Positions 15,817 through 36,722 of a stretch of 36,722 nt of DNA are shown here, piece by piece (the first letter of the stretch is position 1; each line of letters opens with the position of its first letter). Source of the stretch: Vicinamibacterales bacterium (GTDB lineage Bacteria; Acidobacteriota; Vicinamibacteria; Vicinamibacterales; UBA2999); the NCBI GenBank assembly GCA_030680175.1, contig JAUXWO010000038.1:1-36722 (forward strand). The letters run 5' to 3'. Below the pieces are notes generated by a model. The model worked only from the letters and a program-made list of their open reading frames with translations. It did no database searches and was not told the DNA's origin. A program made the translations under genes and the position numbers.

Positions 15817-16839
15817 TTATAGGCCGCCCGGCGCGGCGTGCATCTCAATCACGACATGTCCCGAAGGCAGCCAGCCGGTGTCGGTCACCGCGAAGCCCGC
15901 GGCGCGGGCCAGATCCTCGAGGGCGGCCACGGTGCGGGGCATGGCGCCAGGCGCCGAGACGACCCGCTGCATCAGGCCATCGAGGGCGCGGTACATCGGC
16001 GGCATCCGCCCGTCCTCCACGGCCTCGATGATGAGCACGCGCGCGTCCCGCGCCCCGGCGGTCGCCTTGGCGATGACGCGCAGCAATCGCACCGCGTCCG
16101 CGTCGCCCCAGTTGTGCAGCACGTTCTTCACCAGGTAGCGGTCGGCGCCGGCCGGCACCGACGTGAAGAAGTCGCCGCCGGCGAACGTCAGCCGGCCCGC
16201 CAGGTCGGGCGCCGTCTGCGGCAGCGCCGCCTGCGCCCGCGCGCACACATCCGGCCGATCGACGACGATGCCGGACACGCCGTCGAGCGCGCGGAGCACG
16301 CCCTTCAGGAGCCCGCCGCGTCCGCCGCCGACATCCACGATGGTCCGCACGCCTCTGAAGTCGCGCGTGGTGGCCAGCACGCGGCTCGACGCACGCGTCA
16401 GATCCTCCATCGCGCGGTCGTACACCTCCGCCGCCTGTGCGTCGGCCTCGAGGTGTTCGTAGAGCGTCGCCCCGAGGGCCGGACGCGCGGCCGGTTCGCC
16501 GGTCGCCACGGTGTGCGCGAGGTGCTGGAAGATTCGCTGGTAGTCGCCCGAGGCGAGCTGGCAGAAGTACTTCACCGACTCCGGGTGGTCCTCTCGCAGG
16601 CGCGCGCCCTCCTCCGTCGTCCGGTATCGTCCGTCCTCGAGGATGAACAGGCCTGTCTCCACGAGCACGGCCAGCACGCCCGCCAGGGCCGGCGCTGTCG
16701 TGCCCGTGCGAGCGGCCAATTCATCGGCGCTCAAGGGCGCGTCCTTCACGTGGTCCGCCAGGCCGAGCGACGCCGCCACGCCCACCGTCGATGCCACCCA
16801 TCCGCCGCACGCCAGATACGCTGCCTTCATTGCGCACAT
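15817..16839 (-). CDS. SAM-dependent O-methyltransferase (COMT-like)
   Basis: The 340-residue protein has the plant-COMT/antibiotic O-methyltransferase layout. A winged-helix dimerisation domain (about 10-80, LSADELAARTGTTAPALAGVLAVL) precedes a Rossmann SAM-binding domain with VDVGGGRGGLLKGVL near residue 167. The catalytic histidine is H242 in KNVLHNWGDAD. It probably transfers a methyl group to a hydroxyl or enol oxygen of the PKS/NRPS product, because it follows the NRPS gene by 30 bp on the same strand; this role is inferred. ATG codons at 16839 and 16830 are both possible starts. The gap before it consists of heptamer repeats rather than a clear Shine-Dalgarno. Confidence 0.88.
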   Translation of the reverse strand: MCAMKAAYLACGGWVASTVGVAASLGLADHVKDAPLSADELAARTGTTAPALAGVLAVLVETGLFILEDGRYRTTEEGARLREDHPESVKYFCQLASGDYQRIFQHLAHTVATGEPAARPALGATLYEHLEADAQAAEVYDRAMEDLTRASSRVLATTRDFRGVRTIVDVGGGRGGLLKGVLRALDGVSGIVVDRPDVCARAQAALPQTAPDLAGRLTFAGGDFFTSVPAGADRYLVKNVLHNWGDADAVRLLRVIAKATAGARDARVLIIEAVEDGRMPPMYRALDGLMQRVVSAPGAMPRTVAALEDLARAAGFAVTDTGWLPSGHVVIEMHAAPGGL

Positions 16840-16845
16840 CCCATC

Positions 16846-16873
16846 GGTTCAAGGTTCAGAGTTCGAGGTTCAC
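16846..16873. repeat. GGTTCAN heptamers at the NRPS/methyltransferase junction
   Basis: Four units in 7-bp register (GGTTCAA, GGTTCAG, AGTTCGA, GGTTCAC) fill the NRPS-methyltransferase gap and include the NRPS stop codon. Confidence 0.7.
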
Positions 16874-19800
16874 AGGTTGTCCAGCGATCGGGCCAGCGTG
16901 GAGACGCCCGGCGGCGTCAGCATCGTGATGTGCGAGCCGGGGACGGTGACGGTGCGGACGGGCCACGAGGTCCAGCGTTCCCAGCCAAGCGTGGGCGACT
17001 CGGGCCAGCCTTCGTGGGCGAGCGCGCGGTCCTGGTCTTCGGCACGGACGACGAGGAGGGGAATGGCGGCCGGCGCCGAGGGCCGATACTCGGCCGCGGC
17101 GCGCACGTTCGCACGATAGCGCGCGACGTACTCGTCGAAGAAGGCGCGGCTCGTCTCGGGCGGCAGCAGGCCCGCGGCGCGCATCCGACCGAACAGGTCG
17201 ACAGGCCCCGCGGTGCCGATGGCCTCCGCCCCCGGCATCGATACGCCGTAGAGGCGCTCGATCCGGGTGGCGATGTGCCGCTCCCAGTCGTCGCGGGTCC
17301 ACCCGTCGTGCGCGTCCACCGGCGTCGCGCCCGGCGCGGGCTGATCGAGAATCGCAACCCAGGCGACCGCCTCGCCCGCCTCGCGGAGACGGCACGCGGT
17401 CTCGAACGCCACGAGCGCGCCGAAGGAATGGCCCGCGAGCTGATACGGCGGCGCGATCGCCGCCTCGCACCGCAGCGCCTCCGCGTAGCGCGCCGCGAGC
17501 GCCGGCACGTCCGACCGTCCGGACTCGCCGTTCGGCGGCTGCGCGCCCCACACGGGCACCTCGACGCCGAGGGCCGCGATGAGGTGCTGGAAATACAACA
17601 GGCTCCCGCCGGCGCCAGGCAGGCACACGATCGGCACCGCGTCTCGGCCAGGCTGCAGCGAGACCAGCAGGCGCATGTCCCCACCGTCGAGCGCCTCGCG
17701 GACCGCCGCGGCAAGCCGGGTGAGGGTCCGATGGGTGAAGAACGTGGCGAGCGGCAGGCGGATCCCCCACGCCGTGTGCATCCGGCTGGCCAGCCGCACC
17801 GCCATCAGCGAGTGCCCGCCCGCCTCGAAGAAGTCCGTGTCCGGCCCGGGCGGCTCGCCAAGCACCTCGCGCCAGAGGCCCGCCAGGGTGAGCTCGATGA
17901 CATCCCGCGCGAGTGGTGCGCCCTCACGCGGTGCGCGCGCGGGCGCGGCGCGCTCGAGCGCCGCGACATCGACCTTGCCGTTCGCCGTCAGCGGCAGCCG
18001 CTCGAGGACGTCGATCCGCGACGGCACCATGTAGTCCGGCAGATGATCGCCCAGCCACCGCGTCAGCGCCTCGGCGCCCGGCGACGGCACGACGTCCGGG
18101 TCGAGGGTGGCCCAGGCCCGGAGGCCATCGACCGCGCCGCCGGTGCGATGCGGCAGCACCACGGCCTGACGCACCGCACGATGGGCGGTGAGCGCGGCTT
18201 CGATCTGCCCGGGCTCCACGCGGTACCCGCGCACCTTCACCTGCCGGTCGACACGGCCCGCGACGAGCAGCATCCCGTCCGGGAGCCGGCGCGCGAGGTC
18301 CCCGGTGCGGTACGCCCGGCCGGTGTGCGCCGTCGTCACGAACCGCTCCGCCGTCCGCGCCTCGTCACCGGCGTAGCCTCGTGCGAGACACGGCCCACTC
18401 ACCCAGATCTCGCCAGGCATCCCCGGCGGCACGGGCCGGCCCGCCTCATCCATCAGCCAGATATCGGTGTTGGCCACGGCGCGGCCGAGCGGCAGCGTCG
18501 GCGTCGCCGGCGGCCGGGCCGGGTCCACCTCGTACGTCAGCACCCCCACCGTGGTTTCGGTCGGGCCGTAATGGTTGAAGACGCGGCACGCACCACGCGC
18601 GGCCAGCCCGCACGCCCACGCGGTCGCGGTGGACTCACCGCCGAGGATCACCGCGCGGCGCGGCACTGCGTGCGGCTGTCCTTCCATCAGCGCCAGCAGG
18701 TGCGACGGCACGATCTTCAGGTAGTCGATGCCGGCGTCGTGCATGAAGCGCGCGAACCGCACGCCGTCCGTCACGATGTCCTCGCCGGGGATGTGGAGGG
18801 TGCCGCCGGTCGTGAGCGCGGGGAAGATCGCGGTGTGGCCCAGATCGGCGCCGAGCGCCGAGACGAACGCGTGGGACGCGCGCGGCTCGATGGCGAGATC
18901 CTCCACGATGCTCGACACGTAGTTGGCCAGGGCGCGATGCGGCACCTCCACGCCCTTCGGCGTGCCCGTCGAACCCGACGTGAAGATGACGTACGCCAGC
19001 GCGTCGAGGGGATCCACCGGCGCCGCCGTCGCCCCGCCCGCCTCGCGCGGGGTGACGAGGCCGGCGGGTCCGACCGTTGCGCGCGCGCCCGCCGTCTCGA
19101 GCATCGCGTCCACCGCGGCGCGCGGCGTGCGCGGATCGATCGGCACGTAGGCGGCGCCCGCCCGCCAGATCCCGAGCAGCCCGGCGATGAAGTCGCGCGA
19201 CCGCGGCACGACCAGGCCCACCGCCCCGCCGGGGCCGCAGCCGCACGTCCTGAGCCGCGCCGCGATCGCGTCGGCGCGGTGCAGCAACTCGCGGTACGTG
19301 AGCGTGCCGTCGGGCCCGGCGACCGCGATCGCATCAGGGGTGCGCGCCGCCCACGCCGCAACCGCCTCGGGCACGGGCACGAGGCGTGCCTGGTCCCCCA
19401 TGCGGCCGGCGATGGCGGGCGCGGCGGCCGCGGCCCCGAGGGGCAAGGCGTCCAGGGCCTGATCCGGATCCGCGGCGGCGGCCGTCAGCAGCACGATCAG
19501 CGACTCGGCGAGGCGCTCGATCGTCGACTGGTCGAAGAGGTCCACGTTGTAGCCGAACGCCGCGCGCAGCGCATCACCCTCCTCCACGACGGTCAGCGTC
19601 AGGTCGAACTTGCCGTCGGCCTGTGCCAGCGGCAGGTCGCGCAGTCCGCCGTCCCCGGCCGCCCGCCGGCTGAGGAAGTTGAAGGTGACGTCGAAGATCG
19701 GCGATCGGCTTGGATCGCGATCGACCTTGAGGCGCTCGACCATCAGGGGGAACGGCAGGTCCGCGTGCGCCAGGGCGCCCGCCGCGGCCGACTTCGTCGA

Positions 19801-20891
19801 GGCGAGCAACCCCTCGAACGTCGCCGCCTCGGGCACGCGGATGCGCACCGGCACCGGGGCGACGAAGTACCCGACCAGCGGCGCCCACTCGGGCTGCGAT
19901 CGTCCCGCCGTCGGCGTGCCCACGACGAGATCCGCCTGGCGGGTCCATCGGTGCAGCAGCGCCGCGAACCCGGCGAGGAGCAGCGTGTGCAGCGTCACGG
20001 CCCGCTCGCGCGCGAGGGCGGTGAGCGCGCGCGCCAGTTCGGGCGGACACGACGCGGTGACCGAACGCCCACGATAGGTGGGCACGGCGGGCCGCGGACG
20101 ATCGGCCGGCAGGTCGAGGACCGCGCGGGGCTCGGCCAGCGTCTCCGCCCAGTACGCCCAGAGCCGCGCCCCCTCGGCGCTCTCGATCACCGCACGCTGC
20201 CAGAACACGTAGTCGCGATACCGCGCCGGCAAGGCGGGAGGCGTCCACGTCTCGCCGCGCCCGATGGCCAGCGCCGCGGCCTCGATCTCGCGCCGCAGGA
20301 TCTCGAACGACCACGCGTCCGTCGCGATGTGGTGCATCGTGACGAGCAGCACCGCGTCGGCGCCGGTCTCGAACCACTCGAAGCGGACGGGCGGCGCCCC
20401 CGCCAGATCGAATGGCCGTGCGTGCGCCGTCATCATCGCGCGCGTCACCTCGTCCGGCGGCCATCCGCGGGCATCGTGGGCCACCCACGCGGCGGAGTCG
20501 ACGGCCCGCACATGCTGGGCCGGTTCGCCGTCGCGATCGATGATGCGGGTGCGCAGCGCGGGGTGACGGGCGACGAGGGCCTCGGCGGCCGCGCGCCAGA
20601 CACGCGGGTCGACGTGCGCGGTGATCCGCAGCGGCAGCGACTGGTGGTACGCGGAGCTCTCCGGCGACAGCAGCCACAGGAACCACAGCGCGCGCTGGCC
20701 GTGCGACAGCGGGGCCAGGTCGTACGCGTCGGGCTGTTCGGTCAGCCGCGCATGGATCTCGTCACGATGCGCCTTCAGCCGCGCCAGGACCTCCGGCGTG
20801 GCGGCGTCCGCGGGCGCGCGGTAGCGCAGCCGCCCGTCCTCGAGATAGAACTCCCAGCCCTCGAGCGCGAGCTGCGTCACCCACGTGTCGG

Positions 20892-20895
<4 letters not shown>
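16870..20895 (-). CDS. Non-ribosomal peptide synthetase, docking-C-A-PCP-TE, predicted aspartate-activating
   Basis: The 1341-residue NRPS begins with a TubC-type docking domain (about 1-52). It continues with a condensation domain (about 58-480, active motif HH at 188-189 and D193 in HHIATDAWS), an adenylation domain (about 510-990, A3 motif near 638, YGPTETT, YRTGDLARRLPDG, TANGKVD), a carrier domain (about 1000-1070, S1029 in GGHSLMAV) and a terminal thioesterase (about 1080-1341, S1157 in GHSFGA, H1322 in GSHITM). Aligned by eye to GrsA, the pocket residues read D-L-T-K-I-G-H-V-G-K, close to the known aspartate code. It should accept the acyl chain from the PKS, join it to the amino acid and release the product. 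The GTG start overlaps the PKS stop (GTGA). Confidence 0.95.
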
Positions 20896-26225
<5,330 letters not shown>

Positions 26226-26394: not shown

Positions 26395-26437
26395 ACGCCA
26401 CGGCACACCGTGCGCGGCCACGCGGGCCGCGAGACCC

Positions 26438-26902
26438 ATGACCGACGCGCCGCCCCCCACTTCGCTGCACCGCCCCCCCACGGCCGTCCCCGGCGACCTC
26501 GACGCCGTGCGCTGGATCGACCTGCCCTCGCACGCCGATGCCCGGGGCGTGCTCACGGCCGTCGAGGGCGGCCGCGACCTGCCGTTCGCGATCGCGCGCG
26601 TCTACTTCGTGCACGACATCGTGCAGGAGCGCGGCGGGCATGCCCACCGGGACACACACCAGGTCGTGGTGGCCGCGCACGGCCAGTTCACCATCACCCT
26701 GTCCGACGGGACGCGCGAGCGCGCGTTTGTCGTCAGCGACATCCGCCGGGGCCTCTACCTGGGTCCGATGCTGTTCATCCGGCTGCACGATTTTTCACCG
26801 GGCGCCGTGATGGCGTCGCTGGCGAGCACGCACTACGACACCGCGCGCTCGATTCGCTCGTGGCCCGACTACCTGGCGGCCATCGGACACCCGGGGCCGT
26901 GA
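26438..26902 (+). CDS. WxcM/FdtA-like cupin, NDP-ketohexose isomerase family
   Basis: The 154-residue single cupin resembles FdtA/WxcM sugar 3,4-ketoisomerases, which move the keto group of dTDP-4-keto-6-deoxyglucose to C3. The cupin signature is clear: SHADARGVLTAVEG near residue 30, VYFVHDIVQERGGHAHRDTHQV with the HxH pair, AAHGQFTITLSDG, and GPMLFIRLHDFSPGAVMASLAS. Length is typical. It opens a plus-strand operon with the 2,3-dehydratase (stop and start overlap as TGATG) and the 3-ketoreductase. An isomerase is not normally needed in a 2,3-dehydratase route and no FdtB-type aminotransferase is present, so its exact reaction may differ from FdtA. The ATG at 26438 is the only start that avoids the repeat-rich leader. 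Confidence 0.85.
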   Translation: MTDAPPPTSLHRPPTAVPGDLDAVRWIDLPSHADARGVLTAVEGGRDLPFAIARVYFVHDIVQERGGHAHRDTHQVVVAAHGQFTITLSDGTRERAFVVSDIRRGLYLGPMLFIRLHDFSPGAVMASLASTHYDTARSIRSWPDYLAAIGHPGP

Positions 26903-28359
26903 TGCACGCGCTCGACCGGATCGCCGACGCGTCGCTGCGTTCCGCCGTCCTGGCCGATGGGCCCGGCGCGTCGCTCAAGGCCGTGGAGGACTGGCTCGAG
27001 GCGCAGCGCGCCGCCCAGGCGATGACGGTGCGCCGGGTGCCGCTCGCCGCGATGGAGGGCTGGTCGCTCGGCGGCGACCCGCGCGCCCTGACGCACGAGT
27101 CCGGACGGTTCTTCTCGGTCGAAGGCGTGCACGTGGAGACGGACATCGGCCCGGTCCACGCCTGGGACCAGCCGATCATCCGCCAGCCCGAGATCGGCAT
27201 CCTCGGCATCGTCACCCGCGTCGTGGGCGGCGTGCGGCGCTTCCTGATGCAGGCCAAGGTCGAGCCGGGCAACGTCAACGGGGTGCAGCTCTCGCCGACG
27301 GTGCAGGCCACGCGCAGCAACTACACCCGCGTCCACGGCGGCGAGCGTCCGCCGTACCTCGAGTACTTCCTCGACCCGGCGCGCGCGCGCGTGCTCGTCG
27401 ATCAGCTGCAGGGCGAGCAGGGGTCGCGGTATCTGCGCAAGCAGAACCGCAACATGATCGTCGAGATCGACGACGACCTGCCGGCGGAGGGCCGCTTCTG
27501 CTGGATGACGCTCGCGCAGATCAAGCAGCTGCTGAAGCGCCCGAACCTCGTGAACATGGATACGCGGACGGTGCTGGCCTGCCTGCCGCTGCTCGGCCGG
27601 GGCCCGCTCGTCCCGGGCGAGACCGAGGACGACTCGCCGCCGCTGCTGATCGGCGACCTGCCGCTTGGCGCGTTCGCCCGCGAGCTGCTCGCCTCGGTGC
27701 TCGATCATCATCGCCCGGCCAGCCCGATGCACGAGCTGCTCCACTGGCTGACCGACCTGCGCGCGCGCCACACGATGACGGTGGCGCCGCGCCCGCTCGA
27801 CGCGCTCGCGCAGTGGGTGGCCGACGAGATGTCGGTGCACCACGCCTCCGGCCGCTACTTCTCGGTGGTCGCGGTGGCCGTCGAATCCGGGGTGCGCGAG
27901 GTGCGGAGATGGCAGCAGCCGCTCATCGCGCACGCCGGCCACGGCCTGAACGGCTTCCTGCTGCAGCGCATCAACGGCGTCCTGCACTTCCTGGTGCGCG
28001 CCTCCGCCTATCCCGGCAACGTCTCGCTGTTCGAGCTGGGGTCGACGGTCTCGCGATCCGGCGCCGGCGAGTACTTCTCGCGGCCGGACGCGCCGCCGTT
28101 CCTCGACCTGTTCCGCGATCCCCCACCCGCGTGGGTGCGGTACGACGCCGTGCAGTCGGAAGAGGGCGGGCGTTTCTACCAGTACCAGAACCGCTACATG
28201 ATCCTCGAGCTGCCGGAGGGCCTGCCGGTCGCCGGCTCCCCGATTCACCGGTGGATGACGCTCGGCCAGATCCAGGACCTGCTGGTGCACGGGTACTTCA
28301 ACATCGAGGGCCGCAACCTGCTCGCGTGCCTGGATCTCTGCGACGGGGTCCCATCCTGA
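26902..28359 (+). CDS. NDP-hexose 2,3-dehydratase (EvaA/TylX3/SpnO family)
   Basis: The 485-residue enzyme belongs to the family that removes the C2 hydroxyl from an NDP-4-keto-6-deoxyhexose, the committed step to 2,6-dideoxysugars. The expected internal duplication is plain. GRFFSVEGVHVET, IIRQPEIGILGIVTR and AKVEPGNVNGVQLSPTVQ in the first half (from about residue 70) correspond to GRYFSVVAVAVES, LIAHAGHGLNGFLLQ and ASAYPGNVSLFELGSTVS in the second (from about residue 320). YLRKQNRNMIVEI and FYQYQNRYMILEL are the matching third blocks. Length is normal. The ATG at 26902 overlaps the previous stop; a GTG one codon earlier is also possible. It makes the unstable diketo sugar that the next gene product should reduce. 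Confidence 0.93.
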   Translation: MHALDRIADASLRSAVLADGPGASLKAVEDWLEAQRAAQAMTVRRVPLAAMEGWSLGGDPRALTHESGRFFSVEGVHVETDIGPVHAWDQPIIRQPEIGILGIVTRVVGGVRRFLMQAKVEPGNVNGVQLSPTVQATRSNYTRVHGGERPPYLEYFLDPARARVLVDQLQGEQGSRYLRKQNRNMIVEIDDDLPAEGRFCWMTLAQIKQLLKRPNLVNMDTRTVLACLPLLGRGPLVPGETEDDSPPLLIGDLPLGAFARELLASVLDHHRPASPMHELLHWLTDLRARHTMTVAPRPLDALAQWVADEMSVHHASGRYFSVVAVAVESGVREVRRWQQPLIAHAGHGLNGFLLQRINGVLHFLVRASAYPGNVSLFELGSTVSRSGAGEYFSRPDAPPFLDLFRDPPPAWVRYDAVQSEEGGRFYQYQNRYMILELPEGLPVAGSPIHRWMTLGQIQDLLVHGYFNIEGRNLLACLDLCDGVPS

Positions 28360-28361
28360 CG

Positions 28362-29303
28362 GTGCTGGTCCTCGGCTACTCGTCACTCGCGCGCCGGCGC
28401 ATCCTTCCGGCGCTCGCGCGCCTCGGCCACACCCACGTGGACATCGCGTCGCGCACCCGCACCCCCGGGTGGCCGGAGGGCGTCACGGGCCGGGGGTTCC
28501 GCGACTACCGCGAGGCCCTCGAGGGCAGCGAGGCCGGGCTCGTGTACGTCTCGACGCGGAACCACGAACATGCGCCGTGGGCGGCCGCCGCGCTCGACGC
28601 CGGCCGCGACGTGGTGATCGACAAGCCCGCGGCGCTGTCGCTCGCGGACGTCCGCGCGCTCGTCGACCGCGCCGGAACGCGGGGACGGCTGATTGCCGAA
28701 GCCACCACCTGGCCGTGGCACCCGCAGGTCGAGGCGCTCTGCGCGCGGATTGACGAGGCGGGGCCGGTCACGCGCGTCGTCGCGCACTTCAGCTTCCCGC
28801 CGCTGCCCGCCGACGACGTGCGGCACCGGGCGGCGTGGGGCGGCGGCGCGCTGTGGGATCTGGGACCGTATGCGGTGACGGCGGGGCGGCGGATCTTCGG
28901 CGCGGCGCCCGACGAGTGCCTGGTCCGCACCGCAACGCGGCCGGGCGACGAGGTCGAGACGGCCTTCAGCGTGCTGCTGGGCTATCCAGATGACCGCGTC
29001 CTCGTCGGGCACTTCGGATCGACGACGGCGTACGTGAACCGGCTGGAGGTGTACGGGCCGCGCCTGGCGCTGCGGCTCGAGCGCGCGTTCACGACGGCGC
29101 CGGATCACCCGTGCCGCCTCGTCGGAGAGCAGGCCGGCGCGCGGGTGGACGTCGAGGTGCCGGCGGCCGATGCGTTCGAGCGGTTCCTGGCCGACGTGGT
29201 GGCGGCGTCGGGCCACGGCCCGCACAAGGGGTTCGCCGACCTGATGCTAGGCGACGCCGAGGTGCTCGACCGGATCCGGCACGCCGCCGGTCACGGCGGG
29301 TAG
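28362..29303 (+). CDS. Gfo/Idh/MocA-family NDP-sugar 3-ketoreductase
   Basis: The 313-residue protein has an N-terminal Rossmann fold (VLVLGYSSLARRRILPAL) and the family DKP motif (K88 in VVIDKPAALS), then WGGGALWDLGPYAVTAGRRIFG in the substrate domain. Next to a 2,3-dehydratase, such proteins are usually NDP-hexose 3-ketoreductases (KijD10, SpnN or TylC1 type) that use NAD(P)H to reduce the C3 keto group; this role rests on context. The start is uncertain: GTG at 28362 fits the fold best, while a CTG at 28356 would overlap the dehydratase stop. Its last 57 bp overlap the convergent radical SAM gene. Confidence 0.85.
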   Translation: MLVLGYSSLARRRILPALARLGHTHVDIASRTRTPGWPEGVTGRGFRDYREALEGSEAGLVYVSTRNHEHAPWAAAALDAGRDVVIDKPAALSLADVRALVDRAGTRGRLIAEATTWPWHPQVEALCARIDEAGPVTRVVAHFSFPPLPADDVRHRAAWGGGALWDLGPYAVTAGRRIFGAAPDECLVRTATRPGDEVETAFSVLLGYPDDRVLVGHFGSTTAYVNRLEVYGPRLALRLERAFTTAPDHPCRLVGEQAGARVDVEVPAADAFERFLADVVAASGHGPHKGFADLMLGDAEVLDRIRHAAGHGG

Positions 29304-30854
29304 CCGTGTTTCCACGCCGAGCGCGGTGAGTTCGTCCAGCAGGGCGCGGCACCGCTCGGCGGCCGCCTCGCCGTCGCCGAAGTCCTTCACGACGTGGCCC
29401 AGGCGCTCGAGGGCCTTCTCGATCTTCAGGTTGACGGAGAGCGGCGCGCCGGCCATGAACGGACGCGTGTAGGCCGACTGCCACACGTCGTTGACCGCGT
29501 GATCGTTCTTCCAGCGGACCTCGTGCAGCGTCTTCAGCCGCAGGCGCATCGCGGTGATCGAGTCCATGCCCGCATGGGTCCACGTCCATCCGTTGGTGAC
29601 CTCGAGATCGTAAATCGGCGCATCCTGCCAGACGGGCATCGTCTCATCCGTGAAGAGAAAGAACTGGACGTTGAACAGGCCCCGGTACTCCTGCACGAGG
29701 AAGTCGTGCGTCTGCTGATAGTCGGCCGCCGTCTCGCCGGGGTACCCGACAAGAAACGAGCCGCGCACCTCGAGGCTCGATCCCTTCAGCGCCTCGAAGG
29801 CCCGCCGGTTCTGCTCGACGCTCACCTTCTTGTCCATGTTGGCCAGGGCGGTCGCGTTCATCGACTCGAACCCGATGAAGAGCCGCCGGCAGCGCGCCGC
29901 CTCGAGCTTGTCGACGATCTCGCGGGAGCCGAGCGCGTTGGCCCGCGAGTAGCCCTCCCAGGGCACGCCGAGGGCCGGCAGCGCGTCGAGCAACTGCCGG
30001 AACCGCGCTGGCGGAATCGTGAACGTCGAGTCGTAGGCCTTGATCAGCTCGGCGCCGTTCTGCTCCGCATACCCGGCCCAGTCACGCACGATCTTCCCGG
30101 CGGACTTGAAGCGCCACTTCGGCGAGGCGGCCGGGAACGAGCAGAACTTGCAGGTGAAGGGGCACCCCCGCATCGACTCGTACGGCACCATGGGCAGGGG
30201 GCCGCGAAAGCCGGGTGACGGGTGCGATTCGATGTCGATGTACTGCAGGGGCGGCGCCTGGACCGATCCGTCGGGGCCCCGCCACGCGAGGTTCGGCACG
30301 TCCGAGAGCGATCCGCGTCCGCGAAGGGCGCCGATGAACGCCGGAAGGGCGAACTCGGCATCACCGCGAATCACGAAGTCCACCTCCGGATGGCGCGCGA
30401 GGATGTCGGCGAACTTCAGGTTGCTGTACTGCCCGCCAAGCACGAGCGTCGCGGCCGGAAAGCGCGCGCGGATCCAGGCGATCACCAGGGCCAGCGTCGC
30501 CGCGTCCCAGATGAACGTGGTGGACAACCCGACCACGGCGTAGTCACCCGTGGGCTCGGCCTTGCCGGACCAGATGCCGTCGATCGCGAACCAGTCGTGG
30601 TCGATGTCCGCGCCTTCGAGGATGGACCGTACCGTGGCGGTCGGCAGGTGCGGGGCCACCCCGCGCGACGGCCGGAGCAGCAACCGTCCGTGCTCGGCAG
30701 GGAGGTGAAACGCGCGGATATCGACGGGCCGGCCGGCCAGACGCGCGTACGTATCCGACAACTCGCGCGGCACGTCGTCGGCGAACAGCGTGCCGTCGAA
30801 CGCGCCCGTATGAATGACCGAGGGCCCCAGGCCGGAGATCAGCAGTAGTCGCAT
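29247..30854 (-). CDS. B12-binding-domain radical SAM enzyme
   Basis: The 535-residue protein has an N-terminal cobalamin-binding-like Rossmann region (about 85-180: [53 protein letters not shown]). A radical SAM domain follows, with C231-x3-C235-x2-C238 in [10 protein letters not shown] binding the 4Fe-4S cluster. [21 protein letters not shown] and [10 protein letters not shown] are typical of the B12/BchE-like class. A helical C-terminal part (about 440-535) is of unknown role. Such enzymes often methylate unactivated carbons or rearrange rings; acting on the sugar or the polyketide here is a guess. The canonical DxHxxG cobalamin motif is not seen, so cobalamin use is unproven. It is third in a minus-strand operon. 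Confidence 0.88.
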
Positions 30855-30904: not shown

Positions 30905-32053
30905 TCACCCCGGGGGCCGCACCTCGAGCAGCCGGGCGTACAAGGCCAGCCACGCGTCGCGCTCGCGCGCGGGGCTCAGCGCCTCCGCCAGCGCGCGTCC
31001 CCCGGCCGACAGCCGCGCCGCCAGCCCGTCGTCGGTGATCACCCGGCAGAGGGCGCGCGTCATCGCCGCGGGATCGCCGTGCGGCACGAGCAGGCCCGAC
31101 ACGCCGTCCTCGATCACCTCCCGCATGCCCCCCACCGCCGTGGCGACGAGGGGGACGCCGAGGCTCGCGGCCTCGAGCAGGGCGTTCGGGAGGCCTTCGT
31201 ACGCCGAGGACTGCACGTAGACGTGCATGCCGCGCAGGTGCGCATCGACCTCGGCATGCAGGAAGACGCCCGTGACCGTCGTCTCGGCGTCGAGCGCGAA
31301 CTCGGTGACGAGCGTGCGTGACCACCACGCCTCTTCCTCGTCGCTGAAGAACCCCGCCAGGCGCAGCCCGCGGCGCGCGGACGCGGGCACACCCGCGTAG
31401 GCACGCACGAGCAGCGGGATGTCCTTCACCTTGCGGAACTCGCCCACGGTCCCGACGATGCCGCGGTTGCCGGCGGTGAGCTGCCACGCGTCCTGAGGCA
31501 GGCGCCGCGGCGCCACGCTGTTGCGGATCACCGACGCGCGTCCGTCGATCGGGACCTCCTCCGCGACGCGGTCCAGATACGCCTGGTTCACCGACGTGAT
31601 CCACGACGCGTGCGTCAGGACCGGCAGCAGCACCGCGCGCGCCAGCGGATGCTCGAGGAGCGTCGCCACATCGCTGCCGCGAATGCTGGCGATCAACGGA
31701 CGCGGACGCCCGCGGCGGGCCGCGAGCAGGCAGGGATACGCGGCGGTGAGGAAGAACCCGTGCCAGAGCGCGAATCCGTGCGCCGCATCGAGCGCCTGCA
31801 TCGCCTGGCGCATCGCAAACTGCCCCGCGCCGCTCGTGGGGTCCTCGTGCGCCATGCGGTGCACCGTGATCCCGCCCTCGTCGCCGGACGCCACGCCGCC
31901 GGTGGCGCCGGCGCGGGTCACGGGCGCGACCACATGCACGTCGTAGCCGCCGTCGTGGAGCAGGCGCGCCAGCCTGGCACTGGCGACGGCGACGCCGCCC
32001 GGGTGCGGCGGGTACTCGCTGGTGCTGAGGCAGATGGGTGGACGCTCGCTCAC
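30905..32053 (-). CDS. Glycosyltransferase family 4-like (GT-B)
   Basis: The 382-residue protein has a GT-B fold. The N-terminal acceptor domain starts with ICLSTSEYPPHPGGVAVASARLARLL, the segment SIRGSDVATLLEHP follows, and the C-terminal donor domain has IVGTVGEFRKVKDIPLLVRAY and the E-x7-E motif in AYEGLPNALLEAASLGVPLVAT. It should transfer a sugar from an NDP-sugar onto a lipid, glycan or natural-product acceptor; neither substrate is predictable. The GTG at 32053 is chosen because it directly precedes the first beta-strand and lies 8 bp after the upstream stop, indicating an operon. The open frame upstream is out of phase with the neighbouring gene and was rejected. Confidence 0.9.
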   Translation of the reverse strand: MSERPPICLSTSEYPPHPGGVAVASARLARLLHDGGYDVHVVAPVTRAGATGGVASGDEGGITVHRMAHEDPTSGAGQFAMRQAMQALDAAHGFALWHGFFLTAAYPCLLAARRGRPRPLIASIRGSDVATLLEHPLARAVLLPVLTHASWITSVNQAYLDRVAEEVPIDGRASVIRNSVAPRRLPQDAWQLTAGNRGIVGTVGEFRKVKDIPLLVRAYAGVPASARRGLRLAGFFSDEEEAWWSRTLVTEFALDAETTVTGVFLHAEVDAHLRGMHVYVQSSAYEGLPNALLEAASLGVPLVATAVGGMREVIEDGVSGLLVPHGDPAAMTRALCRVITDDGLAARLSAGGRALAEALSPARERDAWLALYARLLEVRPPG

Positions 32054-32061
32054 GGCCGTCC

Positions 32062-32937
32062 TCAGTACCGCGCCAGCGTGGCGCCGTCGACCACCGCGAG
32101 CCAGGTGCCATCGGTGCGCGGCACGGCATCGAGGTGGTGCATCCCGACGGCGTGCCACCCCGCGCGGCTCGCGCGCAGGATCGGGCTCTCCGCGATCTCC
32201 GCTTCCTCGTACGTCGTGGGCGAGAGCGCGGTGATCGCGAACGCGCGCAGGCTGTGCCCGTAGGTGGGCCAGCCGTCCTGGGCAAAGCGCCACAGGCGGC
32301 CGTCGACGTGCAGCACCCGCCCGCCGGGCCTGGTGCGCCGCCGGTTGCCGGGCCAGAGCGGACTCGACGGATGCGGGGTCCAGCCGCGGTCCAGCGTGGC
32401 GCTCGACCACAGCCCCAGCTCGTCGAGGCCGCGCTGGGCGAACATCCACCAGCGGTCGTCATGCCGGACGATCGTGGCATCCGCGAAGGGGCCCTCGAGC
32501 AGCGTGGCCACCGGGCGCCAGCCGCGCGGGAAGTCCTCGGCGACGTACAGCCGCACCGCGCGATCCTGGCGCGACTCCGGCACCATGTAGATCGCCCCGT
32601 TGGCGGCGAACACGTGCGGGTACGACAGGTGAAACGGCTCGCGCAGCACGACGGCGTCGTACGTCCAGCTGCCCCCCTCATCGTCGCTGGTGGCATGCGC
32701 GATCTCCCCGCGATCGACGGCGCCGTTCCAGATCTCGAAGAACAGATGCCACTGCCCGTCCACGATCAAGAGGAACGGATCCGCCACGGCCTGGCCGTCG
32801 ACATCGGTGGCATCACGCCCCGAGAGCACCGGCCGGTCGCCGGGGGGGGCGGCCAAGCGCGTCAGCGACGGGCCCGTGCGCACACCAATCGCCCACTGAT
32901 TGCGCCACGACGGAGGGGAGGCGGGAGATGCAGGCAC
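32062..32937 (-). CDS. Beta-propeller protein resembling GH43/GINT1-N domains of glycan clusters
   Basis: The 291-residue protein shows repeating beta-propeller blades: ADPFLLIVDGQWHLFFEIWN, IAHATSDDEGGSWTYDAVVL, PFHLSYPHVFAANGAIYMVP, VRLYVAEDFPRGWRPVATLL and TIVRHDDRWWMFAQRG. The opening WAIGVRTGPSLTRLAAP recalls the propeller domain found with glycosyltransferases in bacterial polysaccharide clusters (GINT1 N-terminal or GH43/GH32-like). I could not identify catalytic carboxylates with confidence, so it may bind rather than cleave glycans. There is no signal peptide. The start is GTG at 32937. It is the first gene of the minus-strand operon with the GT4 and radical SAM genes, and is divergent from the gene at 33029. 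Confidence 0.7.
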   Translation of the reverse strand: MPASPASPPSWRNQWAIGVRTGPSLTRLAAPPGDRPVLSGRDATDVDGQAVADPFLLIVDGQWHLFFEIWNGAVDRGEIAHATSDDEGGSWTYDAVVLREPFHLSYPHVFAANGAIYMVPESRQDRAVRLYVAEDFPRGWRPVATLLEGPFADATIVRHDDRWWMFAQRGLDELGLWSSATLDRGWTPHPSSPLWPGNRRRTRPGGRVLHVDGRLWRFAQDGWPTYGHSLRAFAITALSPTTYEEAEIAESPILRASRAGWHAVGMHHLDAVPRTDGTWLAVVDGATLARY

Positions 32938-33028: not shown

Positions 33029-33991
33029 ATGCCTCCCGTCTCCTCTGATTTCTGGGCGCTGACGACGGTCTTCGAACCCGTCCCGCGCACGACGACGCTG
33101 GGCCACCTGGCGCTCAGCGCCCGCGCGCTCCGCGCGCAGGGCGTGCCGCTCGCGATCGTCGAGCTCGCGTTCGGCGACGCGCCGTTCCGCGTGGCCGATG
33201 AGGCGGCGGATCTGGTGGTGCGCCGGCGATCGCGCACCACGCTCTGGCACAAGGAGCGCCTGCTCACCCTCGGGGTGGCCGCGCTGCCCGAGGCGTGCCG
33301 GGCCGTGGCGTGGATCGATGCCGACGTGATCTTCGAGGACGCGGGCTGGGCCGACGCCACGCGCGCGCAACTGAAGACGGTCGCGGTGGTGCAGCCGTTC
33401 GAGACGGCCTGCTGGCTCGGGCCTGGCGAGACCGCCGCCGCGGCCGGCGCCCCCACCCTCCCCGGCTTCGCCGCGACCATGGCCCGGACGGCGGATCGGC
33501 GCGCCGCGCTGACGCGGTTCGAGCGGCACGGCCACACGGGCTTTGCCTGGGCGGCCCGACGCGACTTCCTGACCGCCCACGGGCTGTACGACCGCGCGAT
33601 CGTCGGCGGCGGCGATTTCATCGCCGCGCATGCGTTCGCGGCCGACCACGATTACCTGCGGGGCCGCCACCTCGCGCTCCGCCGGAGCCCGCCGGCCGAG
33701 CGCGCCGCGATCGCCGCCTGGGGGACGCCGGTGGCCGAGGCGACGGGGGGCCGGATCGGCTGGGTGCCCGGCCGCGTGCTGCACCTCCATCACGGCGACT
33801 GGCAGAGCCGCGGCTACGACGAGCGCCAGGCGATCCTGCACCGCGCGGAGTTCGACCCCATGGCGGATCTCACCCTCGACGAGGCGGGCTGCTGGCAGTG
33901 GGCCAGCGACAAGCCCGCGCTCCACGCGGAGGTCGCCGCGTACTTCGCCGCACGCGCGGCGGTCGACGCGCCCAGTGGGGCGATCGCGTGA
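33029..33991 (+). CDS. GT-A-like glycosyltransferase
   Basis: The 320-residue product looks like a GT-A glycosyltransferase. It starts with a beta-alpha segment (DFWALTTVFEPVPRTTTLGHLALSARAL) and has a metal-binding DAD at residues 97-99 in VAWIDADVIFE. A later segment, HTGFAWAARRDFLTAHGLYDRAIVGGGDFIAAHAF, resembles the acceptor/metal region of galactosyltransferase-like families. GRVLHLHHGDWQSRGYDERQAIL near the end contains the HxHHGxxxxRxY pattern seen in such enzymes. Donor and acceptor are unknown. The ATG at 33029 has a GGGGA-like site upstream. It opens a plus-strand operon: its stop overlaps the next start as GTGA. Confidence 0.8.
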   Translation: MPPVSSDFWALTTVFEPVPRTTTLGHLALSARALRAQGVPLAIVELAFGDAPFRVADEAADLVVRRRSRTTLWHKERLLTLGVAALPEACRAVAWIDADVIFEDAGWADATRAQLKTVAVVQPFETACWLGPGETAAAAGAPTLPGFAATMARTADRRAALTRFERHGHTGFAWAARRDFLTAHGLYDRAIVGGGDFIAAHAFAADHDYLRGRHLALRRSPPAERAAIAAWGTPVAEATGGRIGWVPGRVLHLHHGDWQSRGYDERQAILHRAEFDPMADLTLDEAGCWQWASDKPALHAEVAAYFAARAAVDAPSGAIA

Positions 33992-35289
33992 GCGGCACGC
34001 CGCCCTCCTCCAGCTTCTGCGTGTTGCCGTGGATGCACCTGTTCGCCGACGAGGGCGGGCTGATGTATCCCTGCTGCCGGTCCGTCTCGACGAAGAAGAT
34101 GAACGTCGACGCCCAGGGGCACCCGCTCCGGGTGTTCGATGCCGGCGGGCTCGACGCCGCCTGGAACTCGGCCTACATGCGGCAGATCCGGCTCGACATG
34201 ATCGCGGGCGCGCGTCCGGTGCCGTGCGAGCGCTGCTACATGTACGACGACCTCGGCATGCGCAGCCATCGCCAGGACGTCAACGACGAGTACGCCGCGC
34301 GCATTCCGGAAATGCTCGCGTCCACGGATGACGAGGGCGCCGCGCCGCTGGACCTGCGGTCGGTGGACCTGCGGCTCGGCAACGTGTGCAACCTGCGGTG
34401 CCGGATGTGCTCGCCGCAATCGAGCAAGGCCCTGCTCGGCGAGTTTGCCGCCGCGGCCCGGCTGCCCGTCGCGCACAAGCTCTTCGACGACTACCGGAAG
34501 ATGGAGTGGTTTGTCGGCGACCAGTTCTGGGAGATCTTCGAGCGCCACACCCCGGCGGTGGAGCGCCTGCATTTCGCCGGCGGCGAGCCGCTCATCATCC
34601 CGGAGATGTTCGACTTCCTGGCGCGGCTCATCACGCTCGGCCGCGCCGGGGGCATCAGCCTCAGCTACAACACGAACCTGTCGGTGCTGCCGCCGCGGGT
34701 GTACGAGCTCTGGCCCCATTTCGCGCAGGTGCGCGTCACCGTCAGCCTCGACGGCGCGGGCGCGGTGAACGAGTTCATCCGCTTCCCCTCCGACTGGACG
34801 GCGATCGACCGCCACCTCCGGACGCTCGCCGCCGACGCCGGCCGGCTGAACCTCGGCGGCGGCATCGCGTTCAACACGACCGTGCAGATCTTCAACGTGC
34901 TCCGGGTCGGGGAGCTGCTCGAGTACCTCGTCGACGCGGCGCCCACGGCGGAAGCGCCGAACCTGAGCGTCCTCAGCTACCCGCGCCATTTCAGCATCCA
35001 GGCGCTCCCGGCCTCGCTCAAGGACGAGGCCACGCGCCGGCTGCGCGAGACGATGGCCCGGCTCGACACGCGGTGGCCCGCGCACTGGCGCGAGACGGGC
35101 CTCGAGGGCCTCGTGTCGGCCGTGGACGGCATCATCAGCCACATGCACGAGCAGGATCGGACGGCCTACCTGCCGGAGTTCCGCCGCTGGACCGCGATCC
35201 AGGATCAGCATCGCGGGCAGGACACGCGCGCCTGCCTGCCGGAGCTCGCGTCGCTGTTCGACGTACCCGCCACGGGGGTGCCCGCGTGA
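33988..35289 (+). CDS. Radical SAM protein with N-terminal twitch-like domain, paralogue 1
   Basis: The 433-residue protein has a cysteine-rich N-terminus that looks like a twitch/SPASM-type auxiliary cluster site placed before, not after, the radical SAM domain. C11 is in FCVLPWMHL, C29-C30 in YPCCRS, and C80-x2-C83 in CERCY. The radical SAM site follows as C134-x3-C138-x2-C141 in GNVCNLRCRMCSP, then HFAGGEPLI (the GGE SAM-binding motif), NTNLSVLP and VSLDGAGAVNEFIRFPSDW. Members of this N-twitch class have largely unknown substrates and often lie in polysaccharide or natural-product clusters. GTG start, overlapping the upstream stop. It is a close relative of the next gene. Confidence 0.88.
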   Translation: MSGTPPSSSFCVLPWMHLFADEGGLMYPCCRSVSTKKMNVDAQGHPLRVFDAGGLDAAWNSAYMRQIRLDMIAGARPVPCERCYMYDDLGMRSHRQDVNDEYAARIPEMLASTDDEGAAPLDLRSVDLRLGNVCNLRCRMCSPQSSKALLGEFAAAARLPVAHKLFDDYRKMEWFVGDQFWEIFERHTPAVERLHFAGGEPLIIPEMFDFLARLITLGRAGGISLSYNTNLSVLPPRVYELWPHFAQVRVTVSLDGAGAVNEFIRFPSDWTAIDRHLRTLAADAGRLNLGGGIAFNTTVQIFNVLRVGELLEYLVDAAPTAEAPNLSVLSYPRHFSIQALPASLKDEATRRLRETMARLDTRWPAHWRETGLEGLVSAVDGIISHMHEQDRTAYLPEFRRWTAIQDQHRGQDTRACLPELASLFDVPATGVPA

Positions 35290-36611
35290 GCGCCTCGGGA
35301 CCGCCGCGCGCGCTGCCCTCGCCCACCTTCTGCATCATTCCGTGGGTGCACGCCTTCGGCGATGAACGCGGGCGGCTGCGGCCGTGCTGCATGACGCTCG
35401 GCGACACCGAGCGCGTGCTCGAGAACACGGATCCGGCCGGCCGGCCGCTCACCGTGTACGACCCGGGCAGCCTCGAGGCCGGCTGGAACACGCCCTTCAT
35501 GCGGACGCTGCGGCGCGACATGCTCGAGGGCCGCCGGCCGCCCGTCTGCCGGCGGTGCTTCGAGGAAGAGGACCTGCACATCCGGAGCTACCGGCAGGAC
35601 TCGAACGAGACGTTCGAGGCGCACATCGATCGGGCGGTCGCCGCGACGGCCCCCGACGGATCGGCGCCGATCGACCTCGTGTGCAGCGCGGACTTCCGGC
35701 TCGGCAACGCCTGCAACCTGAAGTGCCGCATGTGCTCGCCGATCTCCACGAAGCTCCTGATCCCCGAGTGGCAGCAGCTGTTCGATGTCCCGGACGGCCA
35801 TCCGGAGCTCGAGGCGCTCCGCGCCGTCGACTGGTTCGACGGCGACGCGTTCTGGGCGAACTGCCAGGCGCGGCTCCCCACCCTCGAGCGGCTCCACTTC
35901 GCCGGCGGCGAGCCGATGATCATCACGCGCATGCTCGACTTCCTCCAGCAGGCGATCGACGAGGGGCACGCACATCACATCCAATTGAGCTACGTCACCA
36001 ACCTCACGACGCTGCCCGAGCGCGTGACCGCGCTCTGGCCGGCGTTCAAGGGCGTCACGCTGACGGCGAGCCTCGACGGGCATGCGCCGGTGAACTCGTT
36101 CATCCGCTATCCCTCGAAGTGGGATCGGATCGACGCGCACCTGGCGCGGCTGCAGCGCGACCCTGCGGCGTTCAACTGCACGAAGGTCACCGTGAACACG
36201 ACCGTGCAGGCGTACAACGTGCTCTCGCTCACCGAACTCTTCGAGTACCTCTTCACGCGCCACGCCCCGCACGTCGTCGTCTACCCGAGGCTGACGCTGT
36301 TGACGTGGCCGTCGTGCTTCAGCGTCCAGGTGCTGCCGCCCGCACTCAAGGCGCTGGCCGCCGCACGGCTGCGGACGTTCGTCGCGCGCTGGGAGGGGCG
36401 GTGGCCCGACACGTCGGGCGAGCTGGATCGGTTCCGGCAGGCCATCGACGGCGTCATCGCGCACATGGAGGCCGCGGATCGCACGGCGGAGCTCGCCGAG
36501 TTCGCGCGGCGCACGGCCGTGTACGACCGGTCGCGCGGGCAGCAGGCGCGCGTGACGCTCCCCGACCTCGCCCCGGCGCTCGACCTCGCGGCCAGCGCCA
36601 CGGTCGACTGA
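35286..36611 (+). CDS. Radical SAM protein with N-terminal twitch-like domain, paralogue 2
   Basis: The 441-residue product has the same plan as its upstream neighbour: C16 in FCIIPWVHA, C34-C35 in RPCCMTL, C88-x2-C91 in CRRCF, the radical SAM cluster C143-x3-C147-x2-C150 in GNACNLKCRMCSP, HFAGGEPMI, and ASLDGHAPVNSFIRYPSKW. The two proteins align over their full length, so they are a tandem duplication that has diverged clearly. They may act in sequence or as a heterodimer; that is inference. The GTG start overlaps the previous stop (GTGA), and its own stop overlaps the next ATG (TGATG), so translation of this operon is tightly coupled. Confidence 0.88.
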   Translation: MSASGPPRALPSPTFCIIPWVHAFGDERGRLRPCCMTLGDTERVLENTDPAGRPLTVYDPGSLEAGWNTPFMRTLRRDMLEGRRPPVCRRCFEEEDLHIRSYRQDSNETFEAHIDRAVAATAPDGSAPIDLVCSADFRLGNACNLKCRMCSPISTKLLIPEWQQLFDVPDGHPELEALRAVDWFDGDAFWANCQARLPTLERLHFAGGEPMIITRMLDFLQQAIDEGHAHHIQLSYVTNLTTLPERVTALWPAFKGVTLTASLDGHAPVNSFIRYPSKWDRIDAHLARLQRDPAAFNCTKVTVNTTVQAYNVLSLTELFEYLFTRHAPHVVVYPRLTLLTWPSCFSVQVLPPALKALAAARLRTFVARWEGRWPDTSGELDRFRQAIDGVIAHMEAADRTAELAEFARRTAVYDRSRGQQARVTLPDLAPALDLAASATVD

Positions 36612-36722
36612 TGGCCGGCGGCGACGTCCGGCTCCTGACGCTCGCGGCCGCCGATCGCGCGGCGCTCGTCGACGCCGCCCGCACGCTGGCCGCCCTGCCG
36701 CCCGACGATCTCGATCGCGCGA
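36611..36722 (+). CDS. Partial gene at window edge, function unknown
   Basis: Only 37 codons are visible, starting at an ATG that overlaps the previous stop. The protein begins MAGGDVRLLTLAAADRAALV and continues as an alanine-rich helix. I do not recognise it. The pattern (beta-strand, then Ala-rich helix) is loosely like the KS-AT linker of type I PKSs, for instance the VEVLPLSAHTASALAAGA part of the PKS in this window, so an acyltransferase or PKS may begin here. This is weak. Confidence 0.5.
   Translation, partial: MAGGDVRLLTLAAADRAALVDAARTLAALPPDDLDRA

Follow-up and report, generated by a model that had tools for sequence, protein, structure and literature searches.

Tandem N-twitch radical SAM genes coupled to a glycosyltransferase gene in a PKS-NRPS-deoxysugar cluster of an Acidobacteriota bacterium

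Results

A tandem radical SAM pair at a contig end

The DNA analysed here, a stretch of 36,722 nucleotides from a Vicinamibacterales bacterium (the window), is the whole of contig JAUXWO010000038.1 and ends with two adjacent genes for radical S-adenosylmethionine (SAM) enzymes, rSAM1 and rSAM2. A sequence-only reading had placed the two genes in a glycosyltransferase (GT) operon. The coupling to a GT gene stands, but the surroundings proved to be a larger cluster of polyketide synthase (PKS), nonribosomal peptide synthetase (NRPS) and deoxysugar genes. As the window is one whole contig, the operon is truncated at position 36722. The pair and the genes that adjoin it are as follows.

33029..33991, + strand: GT-c6, a predicted GT-A-like glycosyltransferase with a DxD motif (WIDAD); weak model, four homologues aligned
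33988..35289, + strand: rSAM1, N-twitch radical SAM enzyme of type A, downstream of GT-c6; NF033640 (355.6 bits), trees, AlphaFold2 model
34018..34236, + strand: N-terminal twitch segment of rSAM1 with Cys11/29/80/83 plus Cys30; family alignment, match to the BtrN twitch
34387..34410, + strand: CX3CX2C motif of rSAM1 for the SAM [4Fe-4S] cluster, Cys134/138/141; motif, alignment
35286..36611, + strand: rSAM2, N-twitch radical SAM enzyme of type B, present in 5/5 clusters compared; NF033640 (343.3 bits), trees
35331..35558, + strand: N-terminal twitch segment of rSAM2 with Cys16/34/88/91 plus Cys35; alignment
35712..35735, + strand: CX3CX2C motif of rSAM2, Cys143/147/150; motif
36611..36722, + strand: start of a PfaBC-like AT-DH gene, truncated by the contig end; N-terminal match to the protein of a related cluster (G006)

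The two proteins (433 and 441 amino acids, each read from a GTG start) are 46% identical over 204 of 439 columns, and both match the NF033640 (N_Twi_rSAM) model over their full length, with E values of 3.7e-106 for rSAM1 and 2e-102 for rSAM2 and with scores about twice the curated cut-off of 170 bits. Of seven matches across the genome, these two alone exceed the cut-off. Their description as tandem paralogues of the N-twitch class holds. The motifs FC..PW, CC, CxxC, CNLxCRMCSP and HFAGGEP, all of them reported in the sequence-only reading, begin at residues 10, 29, 80, 134 and 195 of rSAM1 and at residues 15, 34, 88, 143 and 204 of rSAM2, so that both proteins have the CX3CX2C and GGE motifs of the radical SAM core. 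The GTGA overlaps that had been noted are likewise present, one at the junction of GT-c6 and rSAM1 and one between rSAM1 and rSAM2, and a TGATG overlap joins rSAM2 to the AT-DH gene. The open-licence PMC literature searched by the names N-twitch and NF033640 yielded neither a description of the function of NF033640 nor a characterised member, in keeping with the view of this protein class as poorly characterised. A plasmid collection held no match to the pair, phage records gave two weak matches (22.8% identity), and PHROGs returned 'radical SAM domain-containing' families and one family of unknown function, or no match.

Conserved cysteines and structural relatives

In an alignment of 95 family members, C11, C29, C80 and C83 (rSAM1 numbering) are invariant (95/95) and C30 is present in 91 rows. 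The cysteines of CX3CX2C are conserved as well, with one row carrying an X at C138, and outside the cluster cysteines no column has cysteine in more than 15 of the 95 rows. In both window copies all eight conserved cysteines are intact, as is the GGE motif. The PDB was searched with a profile covering the first 118 residues, for which 80 of the rows were used and the final 15 set aside. At E<=0.01 its sole match was the C-terminal twitch segment of BtrN, the 2-deoxy-scyllo-inosamine dehydrogenase (E values of 3.9e-6 and 8.2e-6 for two PDB entries), with the four cysteines aligned. In BtrN four cysteines ligate the auxiliary cluster, and an aminocyclitol is oxidised by two electrons (PMC9012708). 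In BtrN the twitch domain is C-terminal to the core (chain residues 162-237 of 269), whereas in rSAM1 and rSAM2 it is N-terminal, which sets the pair apart from the BtrN family. Because the N-terminal profile matches the C-terminal twitch of BtrN, the domain seems, judging from sequence, to have been transferred from one end of the protein to the other. The second cysteine of the CC pair, Cys30 of rSAM1 (34075-34077), has no cysteine partner in the BtrN alignment, and might serve instead as another ligand or in catalysis.

The AlphaFold2 model of rSAM1 has a mean predicted local distance difference test score (pLDDT) of 95.9 and a predicted template-modelling score (pTM) of 0.93. The core of this model, roughly residues 121-391, can be superposed on BlsE (Z 13.4), anSME (13.4), DesII (13.3) and SkfB (13.3). 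The core fold is thus shared with the sugar radical SAM enzymes BlsE and DesII, from which the N-twitch enzymes differ by the additional N-terminal domain; the pair scores only 28.6 and 20.6 bits against TIGR04466, the model of the BlsE cytosylglucuronate decarboxylase, with its cut-off of 400. The rows listed for the complete rSAM1 model do not include BtrN, which is no evidence of a difference.

The surrounding gene cluster

Upstream of GT-c6 the window holds the following genes of the cluster.

32062..32883, - strand: GINT1_N-domain protein; PF24793, E 3e-52
30905..32053, - strand: GT4 glycosyltransferase; PF13692, E 2e-24
29247..30854, - strand: B12-type radical SAM protein; PF04055, E 1.3e-15
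28356..29303, + strand: Gfo/Idh/MocA sugar reductase-like protein, start inferred; PF22725, E 7e-14, and PF01408, E 8e-10, on open reading frame (ORF) 27813-29303
26902..28359, + strand: NDP-hexose 2,3-dehydratase; PF03559, E 9e-142, scanned as ORF 26410-28359
26438..26902, + strand: FdtA/WxcM-type protein of the 3,4-ketoisomerase family; PF05523, E 2e-31
20892..26225, - strand: type I PKS with KS, two AT and two carrier stretches; domain scan
16870..20895, - strand: NRPS with TubC_N docking, C, A, PCP and TE domains; domain scan
15817..16830, - strand: O-methyltransferase; PF00891, E 5e-32

A 2,3-dehydratase together with a Gfo/Idh reductase (KijD10-type) is a usual route to 2-deoxysugars. 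In the B12-type protein the B12-binding domain scores 21 bits (Pfam cut-off 32.1), and its top NCBIfam model is the PhpK-like TIGR04479 with 159.5 bits, far under the cut-off of 600. For GT-c6, the start codon ATG 33029 was picked from its homologues, a TTG at 32900 also being open. The protein has no Pfam match, and its structural model is poor (pLDDT 53.5) and usable over about the first 115 residues only. This N-terminal part resembles glycogenin (E 7e-4), by which GT-c6 is modelled as a GT-A-like glycosyltransferase.

Related clusters in two phyla

Scanning genome contigs with the rSAM1 and rSAM2 proteins gave 21 loci, the best of which lie in an Acidobacteria metagenome-assembled genome (MAG; L009, 69% to rSAM1), a Blastocatellia MAG (L010) and Poseidonocella sedimentorum of the Pseudomonadota (L011). 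With the window and G006, a genome of the window's own family, five clusters were compared. L009, L040 and L041 are pieces of one cluster, L030 and L031 represent G006, L011 and L136 belong to P. sedimentorum, and the L010 contig is only 5 kb long. By tblastn, FdtA and the type B radical SAM gene occur in all five. The 2,3-dehydratase, PKS, NRPS, GT4, GINT1_N and Gfo/Idh genes each occur in four, the fifth being the short L010 contig, and the O-methyltransferase occurs in three. Homologues of the Gfo/Idh reductase were found in L009, L030 and L136. The type A radical SAM gene and GT-c6 are each present in four of the five clusters, G006 being without either. Across the whole G006 genome, rated 100% complete, the N-twitch search gives a single match (E<=1e-20) and the GT-c6 search none (E<=0.001). 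For the sequence-only reading, a pair found always with an unrelated, well-characterised system would have been contrary evidence. No such association is seen: type A and type B genes occur together with FdtA in 4/4 loci and with PKS/NRPS genes in 3/4, and no described product was found.

The GT4 and GINT1_N genes (30905-32883 in the window) are adjacent in all four clusters long enough to show both. The window and G006 share the B12-type radical SAM protein at 66% identity; it has no match in L009 and two more distant counterparts in L011 (best 25%). A protein of 98-99 residues lies upstream of GT-c6 in L010 (444-743) and L011 (8505-8801), without a match in the window, L009 or L030; its L011 copy has no Pfam match.

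At strict thresholds, N-twitch matches are rare among relatives. Counting the bacterium's own genome, the 43 genomes of its taxonomic family include two with a match at E<=1e-20, the 193 of its class include six at E<=1e-30, and a sample of 396 from its phylum includes four at E<=1e-60. As judged from gene calls, further N-twitch loci in the phylum (G051, G054, G259 and G448) have nothing but the N-twitch gene in common with the clusters; several of these calls appear to be wrong-frame ORFs of the high-GC DNA.

Coupling of GT-c6 to the type A gene

In all four clusters that have them, GT-c6 and the type A gene overlap by four bases (GTGA in the window and L009, TTGA in L010, ATGA in L011), a count that depends on the start codons as read here. 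The type A and type B genes overlap in two of the four (window and L009). They are separated by a gap in L010, and in L011 FdtA, the dehydratase, the 98-residue protein and GT-c6 sit between type B and type A. The type B gene directly precedes FdtA in L010 and L011, and overlaps the AT-DH gene (TGATG) in the window and G006. This pattern of overlap and absence ties type A to GT-c6 and type B to the common core; rSAM1 thus seems tied to one particular sugar-attaching enzyme. Among 132 records, the GT-c6 profile matches only the window, L009 (copies L032 and L036), L010 and L011. Three of 295 genomes of the Poseidonocella family have a GT-c6 match, two of them new (203 bits; 181 and 161 bits). 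In genome G791, two tandem GT-c6-like proteins (L142, 6960-8826) lie by genes that look by eye carbamoyltransferase-like and asparagine-synthase-like, and this genome has no N-twitch match at E<=1e-20.

Age of the two copies

In a tree of 25 rows (support as bootstrap/Shimodaira-Hasegawa approximate likelihood-ratio test, SH-aLRT), the nine enzymes of the five clusters group together with 89/89, the branch between type A and type B has 93/95 and the type B clade 82/59. Window rSAM1 pairs with its L009 counterpart (100/98), and window rSAM2 with those of L009 and G006 (100/100). A tree of 15 rows (support as SH-aLRT/bootstrap) recovers type A with 96.4/78, and FastTree on 66 rows gives 0.998 for the nine together, 0.836 for A and 0.659 for B. 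Eleven positions separate type A from the three acidobacterial type B rows alone. It is firm that the acidobacterial A and B copies diverged before the split of L009 and the window. From the tree support the duplication itself is most likely older than the split of the clusters, which span two phyla. L013 holds a separate, younger pair that has its own origin in the trees.

Likeness to PKS-NRPS-PUFA synthase hybrids

Past the point at which the window's contig ends, three of the related clusters hold an AT-DH protein, an acyl carrier protein (no Pfam match; assigned by reading its sequence), one or two EryCIII-like GT1 genes and a large KS-AT-KR protein. When the 37 residues left of the window's truncated gene are aligned to the start of the AT-DH protein of G006, 17 of 28 positions are identical; the score of 67 exceeds that of every one of 500 shuffles, the highest of which reached 47. 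The comparison with the L009 copy is not significant (52, with a shuffle maximum of 54). For the large protein, the top NCBIfam model is PfaA, with 826 bits in L031, 699 in L011 and 452 for the L009 part. As the cut-off is 1010, these proteins are PfaA-like and not proven PfaA. In L031 and L011 an NMO/enoyl-reductase-like part lies upstream of the KS, as in PfaD-PfaA fusions.

In these respects the clusters resemble the hybrids of PKS, NRPS and polyunsaturated fatty acid (PUFA) synthase described from Ottowia thiooxydans (PMC13291983, main text): the related clusters have a PfaD-PfaA-like fusion, a PfaBC-like AT-DH protein without KS, a PKS and an NRPS. The window itself has the PKS and NRPS genes (16870-26225), whereas the pfa-like genes are seen in L009/L041, L031 and L011, the window showing only the first 37 codons of the AT-DH gene. 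What the present cluster has in addition to the hybrids are N-twitch radical SAM genes, several GTs and genes for a deoxysugar. The main text of PMC13291983 contains none of the strings 'acidobact', 'rSAM', 'radical', 'deoxy' or 'Poseidonocella'; the present cluster may still be among the 63 clusters of that study. As far as literature searches go, the combination is new, the enzyme family and the general kind of assembly line being already known. We infer the product class for the window genome, in which a PfaDA gene would lie past the contig end; the cluster probably makes a sugar-decorated lipid-amino acid compound.

The N-twitch family at large

Of 76 viral loci found, genes were called on the 70 with a length of 9 kb or more; all had been chosen for holding an N-twitch gene, and the contigs were not de-duplicated. 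On 66 of these 70 the gene caller found at least two N-twitch genes (three genes on 41 contigs and five on 10, against one on 3 and none on 1). Tandem arrays of diverged N-twitch genes are seen among these contigs (L056-L130), for example at L072 (5104-12481), L102 (4947-13581) and L108 (3230-11170). Ten viral neighbour clusters, represented by one member each, comprised one GT7, one UDP-glucose dehydrogenase-like protein, one other radical SAM protein and seven without a Pfam match. The host-recognition region of pelagimyophages is reported to carry GTs and cassettes of radical SAM genes, of N-twitch type or other (PMC7029224).

Cellular genomes may also hold many copies: at E<=1e-30, the matches number 48 for one genome of Elusimicrobia and 20 for each of two from Bdellovibrionia. 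An island in Bdellovibrionia (L143 and L144; G556 C1 743000-780000) contains 12 N-twitch genes in two adjoining stretches of 37 kb, together with a gene that is Asp/Asn beta-hydroxylase-like by Pfam. In the Elusimicrobia genome with the 48 matches (L019, 1-15782), six N-twitch domains each end a long repeat protein, tetratricopeptide-like by eye, the last one truncated. Tandem copies are thus a habit of the family; the link to a GT is a feature of the present cluster, not shown for the family.

The neighbours of distant cellular members were taken as proteins of 100-900 amino acids within 3 kb of L012-L029. Of 102, 92 were scanned; seven from L024, a near-copy of L023, and three pieces clustering with N-twitch proteins were omitted. 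Radical_SAM is the leading family with 12 matches, among which may be other pieces of the N-twitch cluster that stayed in. Ten selected neighbours gave two Radical_SAM, one antiporter and one transglutaminase match and six without a match.

Discussion

A proposed reading as two separate tailoring enzymes

We favour, at a rough probability of 0.42, a reading of the pair as two separate tailoring enzymes that act on sugars of a glycosylated lipid-amino acid product. The scaffold would consist of a PUFA-synthase-like acyl chain, extended by a PKS module and one amino acid, released by the TE and decorated with a 2-deoxysugar and further sugars. Each enzyme would bind the SAM [4Fe-4S] cluster and, as the conserved cysteines suggest, one auxiliary [4Fe-4S] cluster on the four cysteines of the N-terminal twitch. 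The 5'-deoxyadenosyl radical would abstract hydrogen at one of the sugar carbons, after which the auxiliary cluster might take the second electron to yield a keto-sugar, as in BtrN-like oxidation, or the radical might be quenched from the opposite face, resulting in epimerisation. rSAM1 would act on the sugar placed by GT-c6, or prepare the site for it, and rSAM2 on a part of the molecule common to the five clusters, perhaps the deoxysugar. We infer from these relations the chemistry (C-H oxidation or epimerisation, with one of the product's sugars as the likeliest target), the substrate and the bound clusters.

The sequence-only reading had envisaged two-step or heteromeric chemistry on a glycan or a conjugate. 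A conjugate is likely, given a PKS-NRPS product with sugar genes, and two steps fit the association of rSAM1 with the GT and of rSAM2 with the core. An obligate heterodimer, in which one paralogue is catalytic and the other structural or an electron relay, would agree with the four-base overlaps in the window and L009 and with the presence of both paralogues in four of five clusters. We hold it quite improbable, since G006 has rSAM2 alone, both rSAM1 and GT-c6 being absent; besides, the A and B genes lie apart in L011, and both window copies keep the full set of cysteines and the GGE motif. More weight attaches to the possibility that the enzymes modify the lipid or polyketide part or the amino acid (C-H oxidation, a C-C or thioether link, or epimerisation), as the overlap of rSAM2 with the PfaBC-like gene in the window and G006 and the fold likeness to SkfB and anSME would allow. 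We nevertheless regard this target as doubtful and prefer a sugar, because of the coupling of GT-c6 to rSAM1 in 4/4 clusters, the type B gene adjoining FdtA in two and a twitch domain whose nearest relative is that of BtrN.

Action on a ribosomal peptide has in its favour the weak matches to the maturases PapB (30.6 and 22.7 bits) and RumMC (25.2 bits for rSAM1; rSAM2 not listed). These fall far below the cut-offs of 340 and 720, and PKS/NRPS genes are shown at three of the four pair-bearing loci. The overlapping junctions from the GT to the gene after rSAM2 leave no space for a precursor, the rest of the cluster not having been searched for one. A peptide system is thus very improbable here. 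Chemistry that differs from every known SPASM/twitch reaction would be in line with the silence of the searched literature on NF033640; it has no positive evidence, and appears unlikely.

Several observations weigh against two sugar-acting enzymes or against parts of the history proposed for them. The peptide enzymes anSME and SkfB tie with the sugar enzymes BlsE and DesII (Z 13.3-13.4), so that the fold favours a SPASM/twitch-type enzyme but not sugar over peptide. As GT-c6 and rSAM1 are adjacent, a single deletion could explain their absence from G006 without a shared function, and the two further GT-c6 genomes have no N-twitch match at E<=1e-20, a threshold at which the controls also gave no match. 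Among the window ORFs scanned there is neither an aminotransferase nor RmlA/B. With respect to the duplication, the 15-row tree places the type B genes of L010 and L011 beside type A (30.6/39) and groups the nine cluster enzymes at only 29.1/35, and no residue separates all four type A from all five type B rows. The epimerase NeoN uses a cysteine donor; a NeoN-type epimerase was considered and is not supported, as the 95 rows hold no further conserved cysteine. Finally, no GT family is among the 25 listed of the 88 families of the 92 distant neighbours, a list in which single GT matches may be hidden and for which no control set was scanned. A glycan role for the whole N-twitch family is thus not supported by the neighbours of distant cellular members, and, GTs not being prominent there, the glycan reading is restricted to the present subclade.

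Significance

It might be speculated further that the N-twitch enzymes are end-swapped relatives of BtrN, that GT-c6 and rSAM1 form a module which attaches a sugar and then oxidises it within a glycosylated PKS-NRPS-PUFA lipid pathway, and that rSAM2 acts on the core sugar. As a whole this proposal is tentative and rather unlikely. If true, a first function would be assigned to the N-twitch family through such GT-matched sugar oxidases, and a sugar-modified branch would be defined among the triple-hybrid lipids. The cluster as found gives the N-twitch family a defined small-molecule setting. Since a related cluster is carried by a cultured strain, Poseidonocella sedimentorum, a marine bacterium available in culture collections, the function of the family becomes testable. 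The cluster also suggests that PKS-NRPS-PUFA lipids have, in two phyla, a sugar-bearing branch that has been little explored.

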